Below, piece after piece: positions 1-55,021 of a stretch of 64,000 nt of DNA. The notes under the pieces were generated by a model, which was given only the letters and a program-made list of their open reading frames with translations, was not told the DNA's origin and searched no databases. Source of the stretch: Paraburkholderia sp. (lineage in GTDB: Bacteria > Pseudomonadota > Gammaproteobacteria > Burkholderiales > Burkholderiaceae); the NCBI RefSeq assembly GCF_028283785.1, contig NZ_JAPWKB010000018.1:186001-250000 (forward strand). The letters run 5' to 3'. A program made the translations under genes and the position numbers. Within the stretch, counting starts at the first letter, position 1; each line of letters opens with the position of its first letter.

Positions 1-58
1 CATTGCGCCGCGTGACCGTTCACAACGACAACAACCACGACGACCACACCACCGCACG

Positions 59-1574
59 ATGCACGCATCATCTTCCGGCGACGCCCGCTCGCCCTCCTCT
101 CGCGACGATCCGTCGGATCGCGCCGATCAGTCCGCTGAACCCCAAGCCGCCGCCGAGGCCACCCGCACCGCCGACGACGCCGTGACCGCCGAGCTCACCT
201 CAACGCCCAACACGTCTGCCGATCAGGACGAACCCGGCCTGGCCATTCCGCAGCGCTATTGGGCGATTCTGGTGGTGGCGCTCGGGATTACGCTGGCCGT
301 GCTCGACGGCGCGATCGCGAACGTCGCGTTGCCGACGATCGCGCGCGATCTCAAGGCGAGCGCGGCCGGATCGATCTGGGTGGTGAACGCGTATCAGCTG
401 GCGATCACGATCTCGCTGTTGCCGCTTGCATCGCTGGGCGACCGGATCGGCTATCGACGGATTTATCTATCGGGGCTGGCGTTGTTCACGGTCGCATCGT
501 TCGGATGCGCATTATCGGACTCGCTGACGACGCTCGCCGCCGCGCGGGTGATCCAAGGTTTCGGCGCAGCCGGGATCATGAGCGTGAACACCGCGCTGGT
601 GCGGATGATTTATCCGCGCAAGCAGCTCGGACTCGGCGTGGCGATCAACGCGATGGTGGTTGCGGTGGCGTCGGCGGTTGGGCCGACCGTGGCGTCGGGC
701 GTGCTGGCGGTGACATCGTGGCCGTGGCTGTTCGCGATCAACGTACCGATCGGCGTCGCGGCGGTTTGCGTCGGGCTAAAGGCTCTGCCGCGCAACAATC
801 GCAACGACGCACCGTACGACTATCTGAGCGCGGTGATGAACGCGTTCGTGTTCGGTCTGCTGATCTTTGCCGTCGATGGCATCAGCCACGGCGAGCGGGC
901 CGTTTTCGTGATCGGCGAGTTGATTGCGGCGGTAGCGATCGGCTACTTCTTTGTCCGTCGACAGTTATCGCAACCCGCGCCGTTGGTTGCCCGTCGATCT
1001 GCTGCGCATTCCGATATTCGCGTTGTCGGTGGGGACGTCGATCTGTTCGTTTGCCGCGCAGATGCTGGCGTTCGTCTCGTTGCCGTTCATGTTGCAGGAC
1101 ATGTTGGGGTTGTCGCAGGTTCAGACGGGCTTGCTGATGACGCCGTGGCCGCTCGTGATCGTGGTGGTGGCACCGCTCGCGGGGGTGTTGTCGGATCGGG
1201 TGTCGGCGGGTTTGCTGGGCGGCGTGGGCCTGGCGATTTTCGCAGTTGGCTTGTTGTTGCTGGCGACGGTGGGCGCGCATCCGGCGCCATTCGATATTGC
1301 TTGGCGGATGGCGGTGTGTGGCGCTGGGTTCGGGATTTTTCAATCGCCGAATAATCGGGCGATGCTGTCGGCCGCGCCGAAGTCGCGGAGTGGCGGTGCG
1401 AGCGGGATGTTGGGGACAGCGCGGTTGACCGGCCAGACGGTGGGGGCGGCGTTAGTGGCGTTGGTGTTTGAGGTTGCGCCTGCGCGCGGGCCGGTGATTG
1501 TGCTTTATGTGGCGGCGGGGTTTGCGGTGGTGGCGATGGGGGTTAGTTTGGGGAGAATACGGGTAAGGGTTTGA
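59..1574 (+). pseudogene. MFS transporter (DHA2/EmrB-like drug transporter), interrupted by a single-base frameshift
   Basis: N-terminal part in ORF 59..1354 (AILVVALGITLAVLDGAIANVALPTIARDL) and C-terminal part in ORF 951..1574 (LLRIPIFALSVGTSICSFAAQMLAFVSLPFML...). The frames join at about 983-989 if one G of ttgGttg is removed. Confidence 0.8.
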
Positions 1575-1674
1575 TTTGGTTTTTGATTTGGTTTGGTTTT
1601 TGGTTTGGCCTGGCTCGGTTCGGGTGTCCCGTTTTCACGTCGGTTTGCCTGGTTCGTCCCTGTGCGGGACCGCA

Positions 1675-1708
1675 CCTACTTTTCTTTGCTCGCGCAAAGA
1701 AAAGTAGG
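1675..1708. repeat. 34-nt palindrome, 15-bp stem with TCGC loop (copy 1, left end)
   Basis: cctacttttctttgc-tcgc-gcaaagaaaagtagg. Confidence 0.95.
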
Positions 1709-1942
1709 CAAAAGAAAGCGCGTTTACCTCGCGCTTCGTAGCGAGTGGCGTCTAGTATTTTTCGGGTAGTGGACCGCGCACGTTTTGACTCGGCGGTCCG
1801 TTTGGCGTGGTGGTCCGCGCCCGCACATCCCGCCCGCTTCGCGGCGGTAGCCCACTTCAAAAACCCATTTTCGCCACGCTATGTTTCGGTCTTTTCGACT
1901 GCTCCGGCGTCCGCCCCGAAGCGCGGTTTTGCCTTCGTCTGG

Positions 1943-2056
1943 ACGATTCCGGCGTCGGCTCAAAGCCCGGTTTTCACCACGCGATTTGCCAGCCGTCACG
2001 ACCGTTCCTGCTTCCCGCTCAAGGCCCGGTTTGCGCCACGGCGTTCACCCGCCTTC
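1943..2056. repeat. Degenerate 55-59 bp tandem units inside element copy 1
   Basis: Units 1943-1997 and 1998-2056 both follow acgaYYgttcc...gctcaaRgcccggttt...cacg...; a partial unit precedes and another follows. Confidence 0.7.
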
Positions 2057-2342
2057 ACGATGGTTTCGACGTTCCGAGTTGCCAGGACTTTTGCGCGCGC
2101 GACCCGACCGGCGCATGCCAGGAAAATGGGTTTTGTGACCGACGGAGTGCAGCGCGCGAAGAGCGCCGAGAGAAAAAGACGGGGCTGTGCCCAACGGCTG
2201 TCGCGGAGCGAACAGCCGGAACGAATGACTGCCTTGTCACCAGGTTAAGCGGTGCGACAACTCAAATCGTGCGCGGTCCACTACCCGTTAGTCAGTAGAC
2301 GCCACTCGCTACGGAGTGGCGGTGTAAACGCGCTTTCTTTTG

Positions 2343-2376
2343 CCTACTTTTCTTTGCGCGAGCAAAGAAAAGTAGG
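2343..2376. repeat. 34-nt palindrome (copy 1, right end)
   Basis: cctacttttctttgc-gcga-gcaaagaaaagtagg, reverse complement of the left-end palindrome. Confidence 0.95.
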
Positions 2377-2468
2377 TGCGGTCCCGCACAGGGACGATCC
2401 AGGCAAACCACCGCGAAACCGGGACAACCACAACAACCAAAACCACAACAAAACCAAAAACCAAAAAA

Positions 2469-3890
2469 TCAAATCGTCACGTCAGCAACCTTCACCACCT
2501 TCTCGGCGACAGACGAAGCCCTCGCCACACTCCTCAAATCCCCCAGGAAAGTATCCCGCCAAACCGACAGATTATTCTCCCTCATCGGTGCCATCATGTC
2601 CGAATGCCGCGCCTGCCGCTCCGCCAGCGGCATCGACAACGCCCGCTCCAACGCCTCGGCCATCTGCGACAGATCGAACGGATTCACGACCAGCGCCCCC
2701 GGTAACTGCTCCGCGGCACCCGCAAACTGCGACAGCACCAGCACCCCCGGATCGGCCGGGTCCTGGGACGCCACATACTCCTTCGCGACCAGATTCATCC
2801 CGTCGCGCAACGGCGTCACATACCCAACCTGCGATTGACGGAACAGCGCCATCAACAGATTCCGGTCGTACTTCCGGTTCAGATACTGAATCGGCGTCCA
2901 GTCGAGCTGCGCGAACCGTCCATTGATCCGCCCGGCTTCGCCTTCCAGATTCTGACGAATCCGCTGATAGGTCTGCACGTCCGAGCGCGTCGGTGGCGCG
3001 ATCTGCACCAGCGACACACGTCCATGCCACCCCGGCGCATTCAGCAACAAGCGCTCGAACGCCTGAAACCGCTCCACCAGCCCCTTCGAATAATCGAGCC
3101 GGTCCACGCTCATGATCAACTTCCGCCCACGCATCCCGTCACGCAAACTCTTCACCGGCTTGCGATCCGTGAACTGCGCCGCGGCCTTCGCGATCGCGTC
3201 CGGATAAATGCCGATCGGATACGCAGCAACCTTCAGGAAACGGTTGTACGCGTGCACCATCCCGTCCTCGCTCGACGTACCGTGCGCGCCGCGCTCAATG
3301 TAATCGACGAACGATTGCCGGTCGGCCTCGGTCTGAAAACCGACGACGTCATACGAGCACATCGCCTTCACCAACTCCTCGTGCGGCGGTACCGTGCGTA
3401 AGACTTCCGGAACCGGAAACGGAATGTGCAGGAAGAACCCCATAGGATTCTTCACGCCAAGTTCACGCAAACACCGCGCAAACGGCAGCAGGTGATAGTC
3501 GTGAACCCAGATGATGTCGTCGGGCTTCAGCAACTCCTTGAGCTGCTTTGCCAGCGTCAGGTTGACGCGCAGATAACCCGCATATTCCTGACGGTCATAG
3601 CGCGACAGATCATTCCGGTAGTGGAAGGTCGGCCATAGCGTCGCGTTCGAAAAACCACGGTAATACTGGTCGTAATCGCGCTTGGTCAGCCCGACCGTCG
3701 CATACGTGACATTGCCCTGCTTCTCGATCACCGGCGCCGATGGCTCGGCCACCGTCTCGCCGCTCCAGCCGAACCACACGCCGCCGGTCTCTTTCAATGC
3801 GTCCAGTACGCCAATCGCCAGGCCGCCTGCGGCGGGGCGTCCTTCCTGCGTCGGCGCAACCCGGTTCGATACCACGATCAATCGGCTCAT
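2469..3890 (-). CDS. otsA: Alpha,alpha-trehalose-phosphate synthase (UDP-forming)
   Basis: MSRLIVVSNRVAPTQEGRPAAGGLAIGVLDALK...WVHDYHLLPFARCLRELG...MSVDRLDYSKGLVERFQAFERLL, typical GT20/OtsA. Confidence 0.95.
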   Translation of the reverse strand: MSRLIVVSNRVAPTQEGRPAAGGLAIGVLDALKETGGVWFGWSGETVAEPSAPVIEKQGNVTYATVGLTKRDYDQYYRGFSNATLWPTFHYRNDLSRYDRQEYAGYLRVNLTLAKQLKELLKPDDIIWVHDYHLLPFARCLRELGVKNPMGFFLHIPFPVPEVLRTVPPHEELVKAMCSYDVVGFQTEADRQSFVDYIERGAHGTSSEDGMVHAYNRFLKVAAYPIGIYPDAIAKAAAQFTDRKPVKSLRDGMRGRKLIMSVDRLDYSKGLVERFQAFERLLLNAPGWHGRVSLVQIAPPTRSDVQTYQRIRQNLEGEAGRINGRFAQLDWTPIQYLNRKYDRNLLMALFRQSQVGYVTPLRDGMNLVAKEYVASQDPADPGVLVLSQFAGAAEQLPGALVVNPFDLSQMAEALERALSMPLAERQARHSDMMAPMRENNLSVWRDTFLGDLRSVARASSVAEKVVKVADVTI

Positions 3891-4291
3891 TCGGCTCCTC
3901 CTCATTCGGTTTTGTCGTGCATGGGGGAATACTTGCCCTTAATGCACGCAAGTCCCATGCCGTTTTAACGGCTTTGCGAGAACGAAAATGTGTGTAAATG
4001 TGACAGGCGAGTAAAAGCCGCCCTCGGTATCGCGGAAAACAGAAAAGCTTTCTGCGCGCATCGCATCGATCGAGAAACGGTTTTGCGATTGCGAATCGAA
4101 TTTTTGAAGCGTCGAAAAAACCGCCGTGGTGCGATCGAAGAACCGCATCGGTCGCCGTGTCGGCGTGTCGTTCTCGAATCATTTCAACCGACGAACGCTG
4201 GTGCGCGCCGGACAAACTTCAGCGAATCGCGGTGCGTCCGATCGATCTCCAGACCGCGCGTGCTCGCCGACTCACGCGCGCCGTCACGCGC

Positions 4292-4504
4292 TCACGAATC
4301 CTGTTCCGAACCGAGATCGCGCTGGTAGTCGATGCCTTCCTTGCGCGCGCCGCCCTGATTGTGGTCGCCGTCGGGCGGCGCATCGGGCGCGACGCGATTC
4401 TGTGCGGCAGGGTCAGGCGCGAGCGGCGGGCCGCCGGTCGATCCTGCGGGGCGCGCATCGCGTTTGTTGTGGCGCGCGGAGCGCCGCAAGGCAGGGTGTC
4501 TCAT
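4292..4504 (-). CDS. Small hydrophilic hypothetical protein (70 aa)
   Basis: ORF preceded by a GGAGG Shine-Dalgarno (tttggaggcataccaagATG on the minus strand). Confidence 0.5.
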   Translation of the reverse strand: MRHPALRRSARHNKRDARPAGSTGGPPLAPDPAAQNRVAPDAPPDGDHNQGGARKEGIDYQRDLGSEQDS

Positions 4505-5155: not shown

Positions 5156-6556
5156 TCAGGCGTCGGCGCCGCCCAGCGCGCGCGATTCGTCGGCGGCGTC
5201 GCCGTCGTCACGCGCGTCGTTGCCGTATTCGACCAGACGGTTGTACAGCGTCTTCAGGCTGATCCCGAGGATTTCCGCCGCGCGCGTCTTCACGCCGCCG
5301 CATTGCTCGAGGGTGGCCAGAATCAGCTGACGGTCGGCTTCCGCGAGCGACGTGCCGAACGGGATCGTGATGGCCGTGCCGGCGGCCGGCTTCGACAGCG
5401 TGATCTGCAACGGCACGGTGGCCGTCACGTCGGAATCCGTGCCCGACATGATGTGCGCGCGCTGTACGTAGTTCTTCAGTTCGCGCACGTTACCCGGCCA
5501 CGGATACGACATCAGCATGTCCTTCATGGCCTGCGGGAAATGCTTGCGCGTGCTGTGCCGCTCGTTCAGGTCGTCGAGGAACGCCTGCGCGAGCAGCTCG
5601 ACGTCCTTGCCGCGCTCACGCAGCGGCGGCAGGCTGATCGGGAAGACGTTGAGCCGGTGATACAGATCGAGCCGCATCTTGCCTTCGAGCACCGCCTGTT
5701 CAGGATCGCGGTTGGTCGCGGCGATCAGCCGAACGTCGGTTTCGATTTCCTTGGTCGTACCCACGCGCATGAACATGCCGGTTTCCAGCACGCGCAGCAG
5801 CTTCACCTGAAGCTCGATCGGCATTTCGGTGATTTCGTCGAGGAACAGCGTGCCGCCGTTCGCGCGCTCGAAATAGCCCTTGTGCTGACGATCCGCGCCC
5901 GTGAAAGAGCCGCGCTCGTGACCGAACATTTCCGACTCGATCAGGTTCGGCGAAATGGCGCCGCAGTTCACCGCGAGAAACGCGTGTTTGCGCCGCAAGC
6001 TCAACTGGTGGAGCGTCTGCGCGGCGACTTCCTTGCCGGTGCCCGACTCGCCGACCAGCATCACCGAGGCCGCCGTCGGCGCAACCCGGCCGATCTGGTC
6101 GTAGACCTCCTGCATTGCCGGGGAATTGCCGAGCATCAGGCCGAAGCGGCCCATCCGGCGCAACTCGCCGCGCAATGTGCCGATTTCCGCCTTCAGGTCG
6201 CCCGCGCGCGGCAGCCGCGACAGGATCGCCTTCACGCGCTGCATGTTGATCGGCTTGACCAGGTAGTCGGTGGCGCCCATTTTCAGCGCGTTCACCGCCG
6301 ATTCCACGGTCGCGTGACCGGTAATCACAATCACCTCGACGCCCGAACGCGGGTCGAGATCTTCGAACAGATCGACGCCGCTGCCATCGGGCAGCTTGAG
6401 GTCGGTGAACACGACATCCGGCATCTGCCGGACCAACTGGATACGCGCTTCGCGCAGGTCGCCCGCCGTGGCGGTCGTGAGCCCGTCTTCCCCGATGATG
6501 GCGGCCAGCGCCTCGCGGGTTTCGGCATCGTCATCGACGATCAATACGTGTGGCAT
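5156..6556 (-). CDS. Sigma-54-dependent response regulator (NtrC family: receiver, AAA+, Fis-type HTH)
   Basis: MPHVLIVDDDAETREAL...VFTDLKLPDGSG...[15 protein letters not shown]...MFGHERGSFTGA...[12 protein letters not shown]... Confidence 0.93.
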   Translation of the reverse strand: MPHVLIVDDDAETREALAAIIGEDGLTTATAGDLREARIQLVRQMPDVVFTDLKLPDGSGVDLFEDLDPRSGVEVIVITGHATVESAVNALKMGATDYLVKPINMQRVKAILSRLPRAGDLKAEIGTLRGELRRMGRFGLMLGNSPAMQEVYDQIGRVAPTAASVMLVGESGTGKEVAAQTLHQLSLRRKHAFLAVNCGAISPNLIESEMFGHERGSFTGADRQHKGYFERANGGTLFLDEITEMPIELQVKLLRVLETGMFMRVGTTKEIETDVRLIAATNRDPEQAVLEGKMRLDLYHRLNVFPISLPPLRERGKDVELLAQAFLDDLNERHSTRKHFPQAMKDMLMSYPWPGNVRELKNYVQRAHIMSGTDSDVTATVPLQITLSKPAAGTAITIPFGTSLAEADRQLILATLEQCGGVKTRAAEILGISLKTLYNRLVEYGNDARDDGDAADESRALGGADA

Positions 6557-6964
6557 CGTGTCTCGAGAGCCTGAAAGTGTTGATGGTGGACGGCATGCGT
6601 GAATGCATGAAGATACAACCGGACCACAGTATGCCACCGAGGTCGGAGCGCCCGGAAGGCGGTCCCGAACGCGCGAAACCGCTACGTTCGACGACCGGCC
6701 AAACCAGCAACTCGACGCGATCTCGCAACAATCGCCAGTCAACGCGCGGCGAAAACACCGCTAACGGCACCGATTGTTGTGTATTCGCTGATTATACGGA
6801 CATATCGCAATAAACTCGACCGGCCGATGTGCGGGTCCGCGCGCACCTGCTGCGCGCCGTGCAACCGCAGTGCAACCACAAAGCGCACGTGAGGCAAGCG
6901 CAGAAACGGACACGCGGGTTTGCCGCGCGTCCGCTCCGCTCGATATTCAATCTTGCAGCTAGTG

Positions 6965-7216
6965 TCAACTATGCGGAAACGGCCACGGCCCAGCGCCGTT
7001 CGCGTGATCGGCGCCATTGGCGACACCCCGCGGCGCCACGCCGGTTTTCGGCACCACCGCGCTCGGCGTGACGACGTTGCCGCCTTCGTTCTCCCAGCGG
7101 TTCAGCTCGCGGCCGAGCGGCAACTGCGCGCCGCCGTGCTTCTGCGCCCAGCGCAACGCGAGCATGCCGCCGACCACCATCAGAATGCCAAAAACACCGA
7201 TTCTCGGACGTGCCAT
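6965..7216 (-). CDS. Small hypothetical membrane protein
   Basis: MARPRIGVFGILMVVGGMLALRWAQKHGG..., one TM helix, adjacent to the DUF883 gene. Confidence 0.6.
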   Translation of the reverse strand: MARPRIGVFGILMVVGGMLALRWAQKHGGAQLPLGRELNRWENEGGNVVTPSAVVPKTGVAPRGVANGADHANGAGPWPFPHS

Positions 7217-7296
7217 GTCGATCTCCTCATTCTCGTCAAACGGTTCAGGCTGCGCGACGCGCATCGCCCGATACGTGAAAACCGTGCGCGCCCGTG

Positions 7297-7614
7297 TCAG
7301 CGCGCGGCCAGCACGCCGAGCAGAAACGCCGTGCCGGCCGCAATGCCGATCGACTGCCACGGATTGCGGCGGATATAGCGTTCCGCGCTGACGGCCGCGA
7401 CCCGATAGCGATGATGGGCGGCGTCCTGCGCGTCGCCCAGCGCGGCTTGCAGGGTTTCGACATGCGTGCCGAGCCGGTCGCGCAACGCGTTGACGCCTTC
7501 GCCCGGCACATTGGCCGCAAGTCGCAGCATTTCTTCCGAGTCGGTCAGCAGCACCCGCAGGTCTTCGACGATCTTCTGCTTGCCCAGTGCAAGCTGTTGC
7601 GTGGTTTCGGTCAT
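7297..7614 (-). CDS. DUF883 (YqjD/ElaB-like) family protein
   Basis: LLTDSEEMLRLAANVPGEGVNALRDRLGTHVETLQAAL...YIRRNPWQSIGIAAGTAFLLGVLAAR. Confidence 0.85.
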   Translation of the reverse strand: MTETTQQLALGKQKIVEDLRVLLTDSEEMLRLAANVPGEGVNALRDRLGTHVETLQAALGDAQDAAHHRYRVAAVSAERYIRRNPWQSIGIAAGTAFLLGVLAAR

Positions 7615-8077
7615 TACCCGCTCCTGTGTTCATGCAGCGTCATTCGGTTGGCGACCCGGACGGTGCGGTCCGATCGCCTTCGTTTAGCTGGTGCGGCAAA
7701 GCGCACGTGTCGGAGTGAAGTCGCAAGCGCCGTTCCTGGCCGCCGCCGATGCCCGCGCCGCAGTCCCGATTAGCATCGATCCGATCGGCGATAAAGCGTT
7801 CATTCCGCGCCACGGACCGGCGTGTCGCGTTCAACAGGCGCAGAAAATTATGCCGATCAGGCACGTTCCGTGCGGGTCTTCCGGTCACACTTGCCGGACC
7901 GCGTGACGACCCGCACGTCCGCTACCGACGCGCATTGCAGCCAACCGCTTTCAGATGGTTAAATCGACCTTTGCGAGATAGTGAACGGCAGCCTGCCGCG
8001 TCCGCGCTCACGAAGCGCGCGTTTGCAATGGCGCATGCGCCGCTTCATCGAACCACACTGCACAGGACACCCTGTTT

Positions 8078-9148
8078 ATGGCGTCAACCGATCTGGATTC
8101 GCCCCCCGTTGCCGGCGGCAGCCACGCCGCCGCACAGGCGAAGCACCGTGTCGCGGAAGGCGTCGCGGGACTGAAGTCGTACGGCTTGCTGTACGGCTCG
8201 TCACCGGTGATGCTGGATCTGTACGAGCAGATCGAACGGGTCGCCGCCACCGACGCCACGGCGCTGATCATCGGCGAATCGGGCACGGGTAAGGAACTGG
8301 TCGCCCGCACGATCCACGATCAAAGCGCCCGTAAGGACGCGCCGTTCATCGCCGTGAATTGCGGCGCGATTCCCGACGAACTGATCGAAGCCGAACTGTT
8401 CGGCCACGAAAAAGGCAGCTTCACGGGCGCGGTCCAGGGCCGCATCGGTTACTTCGAACACGCGAACGGCGGCACGCTGTTCCTCGACGAAATCACCGAA
8501 ATGGCGCCCGTCCGTCAGGTCAAGCTGCTGCGCGCGCTGGAAACCGGCACGTTCTATCGGGTCGGCGGCAACGACCTGATCTCCAGCGATGTACGCGTGA
8601 TCGCCGCGACCAATCGCGACCCTGCAGTCGCGGTCAAGGAAAACGGCCTGCGCGAAGACCTGATGTACCGGCTGGCGGTGTTTCCGCTGCGCGCGCCGCC
8701 GCTGCGCGAACGCGAAGGCGATCGCGAACTGCTCGCCCAGCATTTCCTCGCGTCGCTGAACGTGCAGGAAAGCGCCAGCAAGAGCTTCAGCAAGCGGTCG
8801 ATGGAAACGCTGCGGACGTGGTCGTGGCCGGGCAATGTGCGCGAGCTGAAGAACGCGGTGTATCGCGCGTTTATCCTCGCTGAAAAAACCGTCGAGCTCC
8901 CGCATCCGCATCTGGCCTCGCGCGTGAAGAAGCCGGTCACGCAAGGTGATTCGATGAGCGTATGGATCGGCACGCCGCTCGCCGACGCGCAAAAGCAGAT
9001 CATCCTCGGCACGCTGAAGCATTGCGGCGGCGATAAGCGTCGCGCCGCGAAGGCGCTCGGCGTCAGCCTGAAGACGCTGTACAACCGGCTCAGCACATAC
9101 GGCACCGAAGACGGCGGCAGCGAACCCGCCGAAGCGGACGACGCGTAA
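8078..9148 (+). CDS. Sigma-54 interaction domain activator lacking a receiver domain
   Basis: [16 protein letters not shown]...[18 protein letters not shown]...[10 protein letters not shown]...[12 protein letters not shown]...[18 protein letters not shown]. Confidence 0.9.
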
Positions 9149-44162: not shown

Positions 44163-44202
44163 GAGTTGGTTTTGTTTGGTTTTGTTTGGTTTGGTTCTGT
44201 TC

Positions 44203-44440
44203 GGTTGTCCTGTTTTCGCGTCGGCTTTGCGTGGTTTCGTTCGGTCGTCCCGGTTCGCGTCGGCTTTGCGTGGTTTCGTTCGGTTGTCCCGGTTGCGCGC
44301 CGGCTTTGCGTGGTTTCGTTCGGTCGTCCCGGTTCGCGTCGGCTTTGCGTGGTTTCGTTCGGTTGTCCCGGTTGCGCGCCGGCTTTGCGTGGTTTCGTTC
44401 GGTTGTCCCGGTTGCGCGCCGGCTTTGCGTGGTTTCGTTC
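44203..44440. repeat. Tandem repeat, six 39/40-bp units plus a divergent seventh unit that leads into the element terminus
   Basis: Units start at 44203, 44243, 44282, 44322, 44361, 44401, 44441; consensus ggttgtcccggttgcgcgccggctttgcgtggtttcgttc. Confidence 0.92.
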
Positions 44441-44493
44441 GGTTGTCCCGTTTTCACGCTGGTCTGCCTGGATCGTCCCTGTGCGGGACCGCA

Positions 44494-44527
44494 CCTACTT
44501 TTCTTTGCTCGCGCAAAGAAAAGTAGG
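44494..44527. repeat. 34-nt palindrome (copy 2, left end)
   Basis: Identical to 1675-1708. Confidence 0.95.
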
Positions 44528-44713
44528 CAAAAGAAAGCGCGTTTACCTCGCGCTTCGTAGCGAGTGGCGTCTAGTATTTTTCGGGTAGTGGACCGCGCAC
44601 GTTTGGAGTTGCCGGTCCGTTTTTCCCGGTGGTCCGCGCCCCCACATCCCGCCCGCTTCGCGGCGGTAGCCCACTTCAAAAACCCATTTGCGCCTCGTCA
44701 CTGGCCTGCTTTC

Positions 44714-44887
44714 ACGACGGTTCTGGCCTCGGCGCACAGCCCGATTCGCGCCTCTCGAATTGCCAGCCCACGACGGTTCCGGCGTCGGCTCGAAGCCCGG
44801 TTTGCGCCTCTCGATTTGCACGCCCCCACGACCGTTGCAGCCTCCGGCTCAACGCCCGGTTTGTGCCACGGCATTCACGCCTCTTCT
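44714..44887. repeat. Degenerate 56-60 bp tandem units inside element copy 2
   Basis: Units at 44714-44769, 44770-44827, 44828-44887, same family as 1943-2056. Confidence 0.7.
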
Positions 44888-45044
44888 CGACGGTTTCGAA
44901 GTTCCGGGTTGCCTGGAATTTTGCGCGCGCGAACCGGCCGGCGCATGCCAGAGAAACGGGTTTTGTAACGGACGAAGTGCAGCGCGCGGATGGCGCCAAG
45001 AGATAAAGACGGGGTTGTGCCCGTCGGCTGTCGCGGAGCGAACA

Positions 45045-46372
45045 GAGCCTGTCAGAAATTTTGTGTGCGAGTCATGGTACTCATGGCCCGACAGTAAAGC
45101 GGTCTTCAAACTGGATGGCGAACTCCGTTCGCGCCGCGCTCCAGCACAGGGGCCGGTTGGTCCACTTGCCGACGATGTAGCGCAGGCTCAGCCAGATGAG
45201 TTTGAGCGCGGCTTCGTCGGATGGAAAGTGGCCCTTGTTGCGGATCGATTTGCGCACCTGGCTGTGCAGGCTCTCGATCGCGTTGGTCGTGTAGATCAGC
45301 GTGCGCACCGGCGCGGTGAACGCAAAGAACGGCACGACCTCTTCCCACTGCCGTCGCCACATCGGCACGATCGCCCGGTAGCGCTGGCCCCACTCGCCGG
45401 CCTCGAAGCGCGCCAGTTCCTGTTCGGCCGCCTCGGCGCCCGTCGCGGTGTAGACCGGCCTGAGCGCGGCGGCCAGCGCGGCGCGCTCCTTCCAGGTGGC
45501 GAACTGCATCGAGTTGCGCAGCAGGTGCACGATGCAGGTCTGGACCACCGTCTGCGGGAACACCGACACGATCGCCTCCGGAAACCCCTTGAGCCCGTCG
45601 ACCACCGCGATCAGGATGTCGCGCGTGCCGCGCGCCTTCAGCTCGCTCATCACCCTGAGCCAGAACCGGGCGCCCTCGGTGTGCTCGATCCAGATGCCCA
45701 GCACGTCGCGGTAGCCCTCACAGTTCACGCCGATGGCCAGATACACGGCCTTGTTGCGCACCAGCCCCTCATCGCGGATCTTCACGCGCAGCGCATCGAA
45801 ATAGACCAGCGCATACACCGGATCGAGCGGGCGCTCCTGCCGTGCCCGGACCTCGTCGAGCACCGCGTCGGTGACCGCCGACACCAACTCGGGCGAGATC
45901 TCCAGGCCGTAGAGTTCGGCCACGTGGGCCTGGATATCGCGCGTACTCATGCCGCGCGCGTACAGCGCGATGATCTTCTGGTCGAAGCCGGGAAAGCGGC
46001 GCTGGTATTTGCCGATGAGCGCCGGATCAAAGCGGCCGTGGCGATCGCGGGGAATCGCCAGCTCCAGCGGGCCGTCCTCGCTGAGCACGGTCTTCGCGCT
46101 CGATCCGTTGCGGTGGTTGCCCGCGTCGTGCTCGAGCGGCTGGTCCAGATGCACGTCCATCTCGGCGTTGAGCATGCGCTCGGCCAGCGCCTTCTTGAGT
46201 TCGCCGAGCAGGCCCTGCGAACGCAGGACCGTCTGCGGATCCTGCCCCTTGAGCAGTTCGTCCAGCACCGCCGGATCGAACCGGCTCCTCGTCTTGCGCG
46301 TTGCCATATGACTCTCCTTGGCCTGTTACGGGCAATCATATGACTCGCAGACACAAAATCGCTTACAGGCTC
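45045..46372 (-). mobile_element. IS256-family (mutator-type) insertion sequence, 1328 bp, 8-bp TSD AGCGAACA
   Basis: Ends GAGCCTGTCAGAAATTTTGTGT / ACACAAAATCGCTTACAGGCTC; TSD at 45037-45044 and 46373-46380; removal restores a sequence matching copy 1 (gcggagcgaacagccggaac). Confidence 0.92.
45081..46307 (-). CDS. IS256-family transposase, apparently intact
   Basis: MATRKTRSRFDPAVLDELLKGQDPQTVLRSQGLLGELKKALAERMLNAEMDVHL...YFDALRVKIRDEG...VVDGLKGFPEAI...IYTTNAIESLHSQVRKSIRNKGHFPSDEAALKLIWL. Confidence 0.95.
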   Translation of the reverse strand: MATRKTRSRFDPAVLDELLKGQDPQTVLRSQGLLGELKKALAERMLNAEMDVHLDQPLEHDAGNHRNGSSAKTVLSEDGPLELAIPRDRHGRFDPALIGKYQRRFPGFDQKIIALYARGMSTRDIQAHVAELYGLEISPELVSAVTDAVLDEVRARQERPLDPVYALVYFDALRVKIRDEGLVRNKAVYLAIGVNCEGYRDVLGIWIEHTEGARFWLRVMSELKARGTRDILIAVVDGLKGFPEAIVSVFPQTVVQTCIVHLLRNSMQFATWKERAALAAALRPVYTATGAEAAEQELARFEAGEWGQRYRAIVPMWRRQWEEVVPFFAFTAPVRTLIYTTNAIESLHSQVRKSIRNKGHFPSDEAALKLIWLSLRYIVGKWTNRPLCWSAARTEFAIQFEDRFTVGP

Positions 46373-46500
46373 AGCGAACAGCCGGAACTAATGACTGCCT
46401 TGTCACTCGCTTAAGCGGTGCGGCAACTCAAATCGTGCGCGGTCCACTACCGGAAAGTTACTAGACGCCACTCGCTACGAAGCGGCGGGGTAAACGCGGC

Positions 46501-47730
46501 GGATTCAACCGGTCAATGCAACGCCAACGTTTCCGCCAGTTTTTCAGCAGGATTCATAAACTGAAGGGTCAGGCGGGGGCGACCGTTCAGGCGCGCGGCA
46601 ACCTTGTTCAGCTCAGCCTGTGTATAGCCATCGAGCCGCGTTCCTTTCGGAAAGTACTGGCGCAGAAGTCCATTCGTGTTCTCGTTGCTGCCTCGCTGCC
46701 ACGGACTCTGCGGGTCGCAAAAATACACCTGCACCTGCGTGGCCACCGTGAAGGCCCTGTGGCTCGCCATCTCCGTGCCGCGGTCCCATGTCAGTGACCG
46801 GCGTAGTTGCGCTCGGCAGTTTGTTCACCTGCCTGATCAGTGCGGACGCCACGCTTTGCGCGTCCTTGCCCGCCACCTTGACCAGCATGACATAGCGCGA
46901 GTGCCGCTCCACCAGTGTGGCAATGTAGGTATTGTCCGCGCCTGCCAGCAGGTCCCCTTCCCAGTGCCCCGGTACCGCCCGGTCGTCCGCCTCGGCGGGC
47001 CGCTCGCTGATCGACACCGCCCCGCATATCCGGCCTCTGCCCTGGCCGCGCTCCGAAGCGCTCTTCGCCTGACGCATCGTCCGGTTTGTTCGCAGATGGG
47101 CGACCAGTTCCTTTTTAAGCACGCCACGTGTCTGGATGAACAGGCTGCGATAAATGGTTTCGTGAGATATCTGCATGTCCTTGTTGCCCGGGAACTCGCG
47201 CCGCAGCCACCCGGCTATCTGTACAGGCGCCCATTGTAGTTTGAGCCGGGCGGCCACCAGGCGACGCAGCCGGGCATTGTTCGACAGTGCACACGCCTTG
47301 GGTCGCAGTGCCCGCTCCCAGGTGCTGGCGTCGGCCTCATGGGCCCGATACCTTTGGCTGCCGCCATTGCGCGCGACTTCCCGTGTAACGGTCGAGGTCG
47401 GGCGCCCCAGTTGCACGGCAATCTGACGCATCGATATGCCCGCCGCCAGCGAGCGTGAGATATCCTCGCGTTCGGCCAGTGTCAGCGCCCGCCCAGAACG
47501 GGTGCGAGTGACCGGGGATATTCCACCCCCTTTAGAGATCACCCGGAAAGGCCCACTTGGATGACGTCCAAGTGCGCGCCCGATCTCGCTCAGCGACTCG
47601 CCCTGGCGCCACATCTTCCAGATGTCGGTCTTCTGCTGTGCGCTTAGCCAGTGTTTCCTCTGCCGTTCCATAGTGTTCCACTCTCCAATTCCGCATTGGA
47701 ACAGATATGTTGCAACGACCGGTTGAATCC
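46501..47730 (-). mobile_element. IS30-family insertion sequence (about 1230 bp) inserted in the right arm of element copy 2
   Basis: Inverted ends ggattcaaccggtc.../...gaccggttgaatcc; flanks gtaaacgcg and cgcgctttc join to the copy 1 sequence gtaaacgcgctttc. Confidence 0.9.
46513..47671 (-). pseudogene. IS30-family transposase, frameshifted
   Basis: N-terminal part in ORF 46613..47671 (MERQRKHWLSAQQKTDIWKMWRQGESLSEIGRALGRH...), C-terminal part in ORF 46513..46770 (MASHRAFTVATQVQVYFCDPQSPWQRGSNENTNGLLRQYFPKGT); LTWDRGTEM is only readable after a frame change near 46800. Confidence 0.85.
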
Positions 47731-47746
47731 GCCGCGCTTTCTTTTA

Positions 47747-47780
47747 CCTACTTTTCTTTGCGCGAGCAAAGAAAAGTAGG
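47747..47780. repeat. 34-nt palindrome (copy 2, right end)
   Basis: cctacttttctttgc-gcga-gcaaagaaaagtagg. Confidence 0.95.
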
Positions 47781-47867
47781 TGCGGTCCCGCACAGGGACG
47801 ATCCAGGCAGACCGGCGTGAATACGGGACAACCGAGGCAACCCAACAGCAACCAACCCCAACCTCAA

Positions 47868-54654: not shown

Positions 54655-54861
54655 ATCTTGAAGGACGCCGCGCAACCGGCTCGCGCATGCGACGCCGGAA
54701 AAAGTCCCAGACGCCGCTCCCGGATGTAAGAACTGCCGGACCACGCGCGGTGCAAAGATCGAAAAAAATTTCGAACTCTGTCGAAATCCGGCTGTCTGTC
54801 TTTACGGTACGTGGCTGTTTGAAAGCGGCTGCGTCACCATTCTCCTCTTGTCGTTGTTGCT

Positions 54862-54889
54862 CCGGGGCCCAATCGCCCCGGTTTTTTTT
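54862..54889 (+). terminator. Rho-independent-terminator-like hairpin upstream of metG
   Basis: ccggggcccaatcgccccggtttttttt. Confidence 0.65.
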
Positions 54890-55021
54890 GCCTGCAATTC
54901 CGCGCGCCGCGGCCCGTTTTGCACGCGCAACCGCACGACAGCCGTGCGTTCTCTCCCCGCCGCGCGGCGCGGCCCCCCTGCTAGAATCGAAGTTTCGTCC
55001 CTCGCAAGACCTCACCACCCT

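Follow-up and report, generated by a model that had tools for sequence, protein, structure and literature searches.

A dispersed palindromic repeat of Paraburkholderia flanked by a mirrored mutation gradient, a possible mark of recurrent chromosome breakage

Copy 1 of the element described here lies between two convergent genes of a Paraburkholderia genome, otsA (2469-3905, minus strand) and an MFS gene (218-1574), and raises the question of what so long a palindrome does to the chromosome that carries it. All positions refer to the window, the 64-kb stretch of DNA that was analysed. Natural sites of chromosome breakage and the evolutionary mark left by their repair are open questions that have mostly been studied with engineered cuts, and the locus may bear on both. 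An earlier note on this DNA had described a structured repeat of unrecognised family, possibly MITE-like, a chromosomal structural element or a structured RNA. That account is supported in part: it missed the gradient in the flanks, which is the main feature of the element, as well as the copy number and the insertion sequences (IS) in the second copy.

Anatomy, copy number and spread of the element

The perfect inverted arms of 72 nt recognised in the earlier note are confirmed by the sequence itself, with 1656-1727 being the inverted copy of 2324-2395, and their imperfect continuation is recovered by a repeat finder as arms of 146 nt matching at 85% (1587-1732 and 2319-2464). The left terminal inverted repeat (1626-1727) consists of an outer segment, a small hairpin at 1656-1670 (GTCCC-TGTGC-GGGAC), a perfect 34-nt hairpin at 1675-1708 (CCTACTTTTCTTTGC-TCGC-GCAAAGAAAAGTAGG) with a 15-bp stem and a loop that is nearly invariant in the genome, and then CAAAAGAAAGCGCGTTTAC. 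The right terminal inverted repeat (2324-2428) likewise carries both hairpins, the perfect one at 2343-2376, with the loop GCGA, being the reverse complement of its left counterpart, followed by the small one at 2381-2395 and the outer segment. Inward of these, the repeat finder delineates inner arms at 1734-1812 and 2238-2316, which pair at 78%, and the central region (1857-2140) contains both the inner inverted pair noticed before (caaaaacccatttt / ggaaaatgggttttgtg) and degenerate units of about 57 bp discernible by eye. Element lengths across the genome also step by about 57 bp, clustering at 536, 598, 656, 712 and 770 bp. No gene of its own was found inside copy 1. Against shuffled sequences the 34-nt hairpin folds with z = -7.6, and the 811-nt element reaches -484 kcal/mol against -316 +/- 9 in shuffles (z = -18), forming the long hairpin that is expected of a palindrome cleaved by SbcCD.

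The hairpin is itself under conservation. In 69 distinct hairpin contexts across taxa, the second and third base pairs below the common stem core vary while retaining Watson-Crick complementarity (CG 37, TA 22, GC 6 and AT 4, 100% paired, for the former; CG 44, GC 22, TA 1 and AT 1, 99% paired, for the latter), and pairing ends at the fourth. As several Watson-Crick forms occur at the same stem pairs, the hairpin is conserved through compensatory change.

The hairpin pattern matches 117 times in the 7.06-Mb genome of this strain and its reversed version not once, which together with the folding scores places the element far above chance and bears out its description as multi-copy, non-coding and highly structured. 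The census, which answers the earlier call to count copies per genome, combines pattern counts with 45 fetched regions holding about 50 copies, in a draft genome of 21 contigs whose genes were predicted by means of a simple codon model. The hairpins usually form inverted pairs about 500-770 bp apart, or 2-3 kb apart where an IS lies between them. When 44 left ends are aligned, the surroundings of the hairpin are almost invariant and the terminal repeat holds about 1.6-2.0 bits per column; more than about 50 bp outside the hairpin there is little common sequence on either side other than G/T-rich DNA on the inward-pointing strand. The exact hairpin is present in 95 of the 148 genomes of the genus, 1 to 365 times each (kinship not being corrected for), and in 23 of 369 genomes sampled across the class, of which those other than our own hold it 1-14 times; several of these class genomes, and Caballeronia too, display the two-hairpin architecture with different stems. 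A related hairpin in Pseudoalteromonas lies directly downstream of the TwoAYGGAY RNA motif (RF01731; L107, 3861-3974), and three hairpins in P. piscicida (L108) stand in direct tandem, about 750 bp apart.

The second copy claimed in the earlier note is indeed present, from 44421 to 47845, with its hairpins at 44494-44527 and 47747-47780. It is longer than copy 1 because two transposons have inserted into it, one of the IS256 family (45047-46372, approximate ends, minus strand; PF00872, ORF 45081-46307) and one of the IS30 family (46498-47732, approximate ends, minus strand; HTH_38 and rve, ORF 46613-47671). At 44170-44493 this copy is abutted by a tandem array of about seven units of 39-40 bp, which are similar to the terminal repeat's outer segment. 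We observed that IS repeatedly land in the element, with the same junction in several copies: an IS30-like end recurs in L062, L064 and L101, and an end with GGAAGGTCTG in L071 and L078 and in the loci L200, L201 and L206 of the species G020. Roughly a quarter of the two-ended copies in our genome are 1.8-3.3 kb long and apparently bear an IS.

Neither Rfam, at the gathering threshold, nor phage records yielded a match to the element, and no named family in the libraries searched covers its two-hairpin form, in keeping with the previous failure to recognise one. Searches of the open-access literature found no description of the element or of a gradient in bacteria such as that reported below, which is weak evidence of novelty.

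The sites themselves have a recoverable history, and the comparison with relatives that had been suggested was informative at two of them. In 29 of 29 relatives the otsA/MFS site is empty, the same convergent pair being separated by a gap of 45-330 bp that in most of them holds a terminator-like hairpin, and of 29 compared at the right gene of locus L068, none has the element there either. This comparison indicates that the element was gained at sites that are empty in relatives. The MFS gene beside copy 1 displays a frameshift at about 973-1017 relative to 29 orthologues, reflecting either a pseudogene or a sequencing error.

A strand-mirrored gradient in the flanks

On the strand that runs 5' to 3' toward the element, G and T are enriched and C and A depleted, and this holds on both sides. 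At 50-100 bp the inward strand is composed of T 0.44, G 0.39, C 0.14 and A 0.03, and its GC skew declines from 0.48 there to 0.27 at 250-400 bp, 0.12 at 600-900 bp and 0.03 at 1.8-2.5 kb, being 0 beyond; the halo is back at background by about 2.5 kb, and fitting two exponentials yields lengths of about 140 and 960 bp. In the window, the visible part of the left halo of copy 1 (1-1674, plus strand) rises toward the element over the 3' end of the MFS gene, and the right halo (2377-4400, outer limit approximate, minus strand) covers the 3' half of otsA. Copy 2 (locus L064) shows the halo on both of its outer sides (0.47 left, 0.26 right), and in a scan of the entire window the two copies are the strongest strand-switch points. 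Across 41 two-ended copies, the G+T excess surpasses 0.1 in 81 of 82 flanks (sign test, 3e-23), against a background of -0.007 (sd 0.074) across 263 windows at distances beyond 3 kb; the lone exception is the right flank of L100, a copy in which unrelated sequence stands in place of the outer repeat. No consistent skew was found inside the two-ended copies. The same gradient recurs in the species G001 (20 loci) and G020 (19 loci), where the interiors are different, and is weak or absent around the related hairpins of other genera.

The balance between the two sides bears on one explanation of the halo, namely that replication forks are arrested, or meet, at the palindrome and that the lagging-strand template is thereby exposed in single-stranded form, with no break involved. 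The sign of the halo is that of the leading-strand bias of forks heading toward the element, and the lagging-strand template can form hairpins; yet replication from one side would be expected at most sites, whereas the mean G+T excess is 0.298 on the left and 0.291 on the right, with both sides above 0.1 in 40 of 41 pairs. We hence regard this explanation as improbable.

Within genes the gradient shows at third codon positions: third-codon GC skew is 0.76 near the element and drops to 0.02, and among two-fold codons T/(T+C) climbs from 0.32 to 0.86 and G/(G+A) from 0.56 to 0.87 on nearing it. In genes that read away from the element the coding-strand skew is reversed (-0.48 near, -0.04 far), and this mirror sign indicates that the halo follows the element and not transcription. 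The element sits mostly just 3' of genes: where genes were called on both sides (41 copies), they are convergent at 20 copies, in tandem at 18 and divergent at 3, and the convergent setting is far commoner than at other junctions (45 of 273; p = 1e-5). This placement, and the presence of copy 1 where relatives have a terminator-like hairpin, would suit a bidirectional transcription terminator or a structured RNA, with the halo arising from transcription through R-loops or damage to the non-template strand. The RNA version draws further on Bp1_684 (Rfam RF02421; Bp1_Cand684), a candidate sRNA of B. pseudomallei that lies near pdhB and lpdA and was validated by RT-PCR (PMC3521395), and to which the outward-facing half of the terminal repeat can be aligned (AGAAAAGU...CCCGCACAGGG). 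The family scores 118.8 bits in B. cepacia, and 39.2 and 34.7 bits in Caballeronia, where the two matches stand in inverted orientation. This resemblance leaves some room for the earlier thought of a structural element or structured RNA; the score here is 23.8 bits against a gathering score of 44, and the family describes 113 positions and not the two-hairpin element. Against a transcriptional origin of the halo stand the sign in away-reading genes and the element-free gene junctions, at which the halo was not seen: none of 90 has both sides above 0.15, and convergent ones show little skew (0.066/0.009, n=21). We therefore reject transcription as the cause of the halo, its sign being independent of gene direction, and consider this reading as a whole very improbable; a role as terminator may hold as well, yet it would leave the halo unexplained.

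A further alternative attributes the halo to selection instead of mutation, with a polar G/T-rich sequence (Chi-like, KOPS-like or favoured by RecA) being kept pointing at the element. Across 92 flanks the motif GCTGGTGG is indeed found 20 times pointing inward and never pointing outward. However, no k-mer strongly exceeds what base composition predicts, on which ground Chi alone is rejected, and C and A at synonymous sites are shifted generally, over 1-2 kb and at nearly every copy. Selection of this kind thus appears the most remote of the explanations considered.

The direction of change was read from three genes at two sites, using synonymous third positions that are conserved in element-free orthologues. 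At 90-400 bp from the element, C has changed at 35 of 54 positions (19 C>G, 15 C>T, 1 C>A) and G at 12 of 73, while further out, at 1.3-1.8 kb, C has changed at 10 of 52 and G at 8 of 58 (p = 3e-8 and 2e-6). This polarised loss implies that C on the inward strand was hit near the element, after insertion. Inward-strand A was also hit, as seen at few sites (A>G at 5 of 5 within 90-400 bp). Third-position mismatch between our lineage and the relatives, taken relative to that among the relatives, is 1.5x beside the element and 1.2x further out. A skew pre-existing at the target is rejected at the two sites tested, the element-free orthologues being without the gradient.

Recurrent breakage and the likeness of copies

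If a two-ended break were resected 5' to 3', C and A would be expected to disappear on each side from the strand that points its 3' end at the element, giving a mirrored pattern centred there, as is seen; for this reason we favour a reading in which the dispersed palindrome is a site of recurrent two-ended breakage and resection, repaired by recombination. We infer the break from the pattern it would leave, and judge this reading to be somewhat more probable than not. The non-coding interrupted palindrome would fold into a hairpin or cruciform, probably at replication, and be broken repeatedly as a two-ended double-strand break; 5'-to-3' resection would then expose, on each side, a 3' single strand between a few hundred bases and about 2 kb long, on which C and A would be damaged or miscopied. 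Repair by homologous recombination would retain the element and, where other copies served as donors, would make the copies within a genome alike.

Two known systems come close to this proposal. Around human meiotic breaks the forward strand shows C>N and A>N mutations, the reverse strand bears their mirror image, and the pattern, which extends over 2 kb, is tied to resection (PMC7615360). The flanks of our element bear the same mirrored C and A asymmetry over about 2 kb, on the break-pointing strand and with a centre free of asymmetry; the human hotspots are eukaryotic and programmed by PRDM9/SPO11, whereas here a bacterial palindromic repeat would be the site of the presumed break. In E. coli, an engineered interrupted palindrome of 246 bp can undergo SbcCD cleavage in each replication cycle, being repaired from the sister and kept in the chromosome (PMC4213011), and a chronic two-ended break so repaired would likewise keep the present element. 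Compared with that palindrome as described, our element is natural and dispersed, with some 50-180 copies in the genomes examined, lies in a genome in which canonical SbcD was not found, and has a mutation halo.

Several considerations count against breakage, among them the weak or missing gradient around the related hairpins of other genera and the failure to find in this genome canonical SbcD, which cuts palindromes in E. coli. RecBCD-type repair is expected to remove the DNA adjacent to a break, and not to preserve it in mutated form. Furthermore, in E. coli the rpoB mutation rate was reported to be no higher under the chronic break at the palindrome (PMC4213011).

The nuclease that would cut the folded element is unlikely to be canonical SbcCD, which we reject for this genome: the best match to TIGR00619 scores 47.5 bits against a cut-off of 77.65, and SbcD surpasses the cut-off in only 15 of the 148 genus genomes, falling below it in our own and in the four copy-richest. 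Hairpins are, if anything, more numerous in genomes that do have SbcD (median 11 vs 2, p = 0.025, with no correction for phylogeny). A divergent Mre11/Rad50-like pair, comprising a metallophosphatase of 375 aa and an SMC-like ATPase of 874 aa (L240, 516-4264), could provide one candidate nuclease. Many other members of the genus give a similarly partial match to SbcD, at about 45-50 bits.

The nearest rival posits that the element is a MITE-like non-autonomous transposon, cut at its terminal hairpins by a transposase and restored by repair from the sister, with the halo as an excision scar; such excision would make the same break. It is suggested by the long terminal inverted repeats (72-nt perfect, about 146-nt imperfect), the dozens to hundreds of copies, the species-specific interiors and the two sites empty in all 29 relatives, which is the part of the earlier MITE-like suggestion that stands. 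However, no target-site duplication is visible, the flanks read on the same strand being opposite, G/T-rich on the left and C/A-rich on the right; mutation could have erased one, and the ends of the element lack sharpness. A non-exhaustive search revealed no transposase with the ends of the element, those in copy 2 belonging to the IS256 and IS30 insertions, and the few sites common to species hold elements whose sequences are not shared, so some copies seem long-settled. On balance we deem a MITE-like origin of the halo unlikely. REP/REPIN elements, with their RAYTs, and MITEs resemble the present element in being intergenic, multi-copy and built of inverted hairpin pairs, but in comparison with REPINs it is longer (540-770 bp), lacks a linked RAYT and shows no target-site duplication; a REP/REPIN origin is rejected, the sole Y1 (RAYT) match of the genome (PF01797) lying at a locus, L106, from which the hairpin words are absent.

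The likeness of copies provides a separate line of evidence. What lies between the two hairpins in copy 1 has no match at E 1e-12 in the other genomes among the 148 of the genus, and copies show a likeness, over all columns, of 0.80 within the genome and 0.51 between species. Certain sites are nevertheless occupied in two species, namely L079/L182 and L073/L171 (with G001) and L097/L204 and L062/L197 (with G020). At two of these shared sites the aligned elements, with a likeness of 0.537 and 0.520, are no closer to each other than random cross-species pairs (0.513 and 0.502). Between G001 and G020, two sites with flanks matched at 87-89% hold elements with a likeness of 0.716 and 0.771, where 25 sampled pairs average 0.707 and reach at most 0.760. 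A further pair, L069/L179, was rejected as a common site, the two lying in neighbouring gaps at different sites. Arm types A and B are found in all four left-right combinations. This pattern of likeness is what gene conversion among copies would give, the alternative being independent insertion at the same site; recurrent breakage, if true, would explain why copies within a species are alike.

In its broadest form, the proposal is that the genus harbours some 50-180 natural hotspots of recurrent double-strand breaks per copy-rich genome, each a selfish or tolerated palindrome that imposes a lasting, strand-specific field of hypermutation, about 2 kb in extent, on neighbouring genes and is kept like its fellows by break-induced recombination, as a bacterial counterpart of meiotic hotspots. 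We see the case for this wider claim as evenly poised. Were breakage at the element to hold, these repeats would be natural break sites written in base composition and readable from sequence in many species, and through them the 3' ends of adjoining genes would be subject to skewed codon choice and increased mutation. The mirrored gradient would also offer a sequence-only test for recurrent breaks, applicable to any genome.

Elsewhere in the window, the Burkholderia sRNA ncS16 (Rfam RF02866) lies at 54807-54890, and two diverged inverted repeats of 142 and 223 nt, matching at 73-77%, span 5217-9108, possibly as an inverted gene duplicate.
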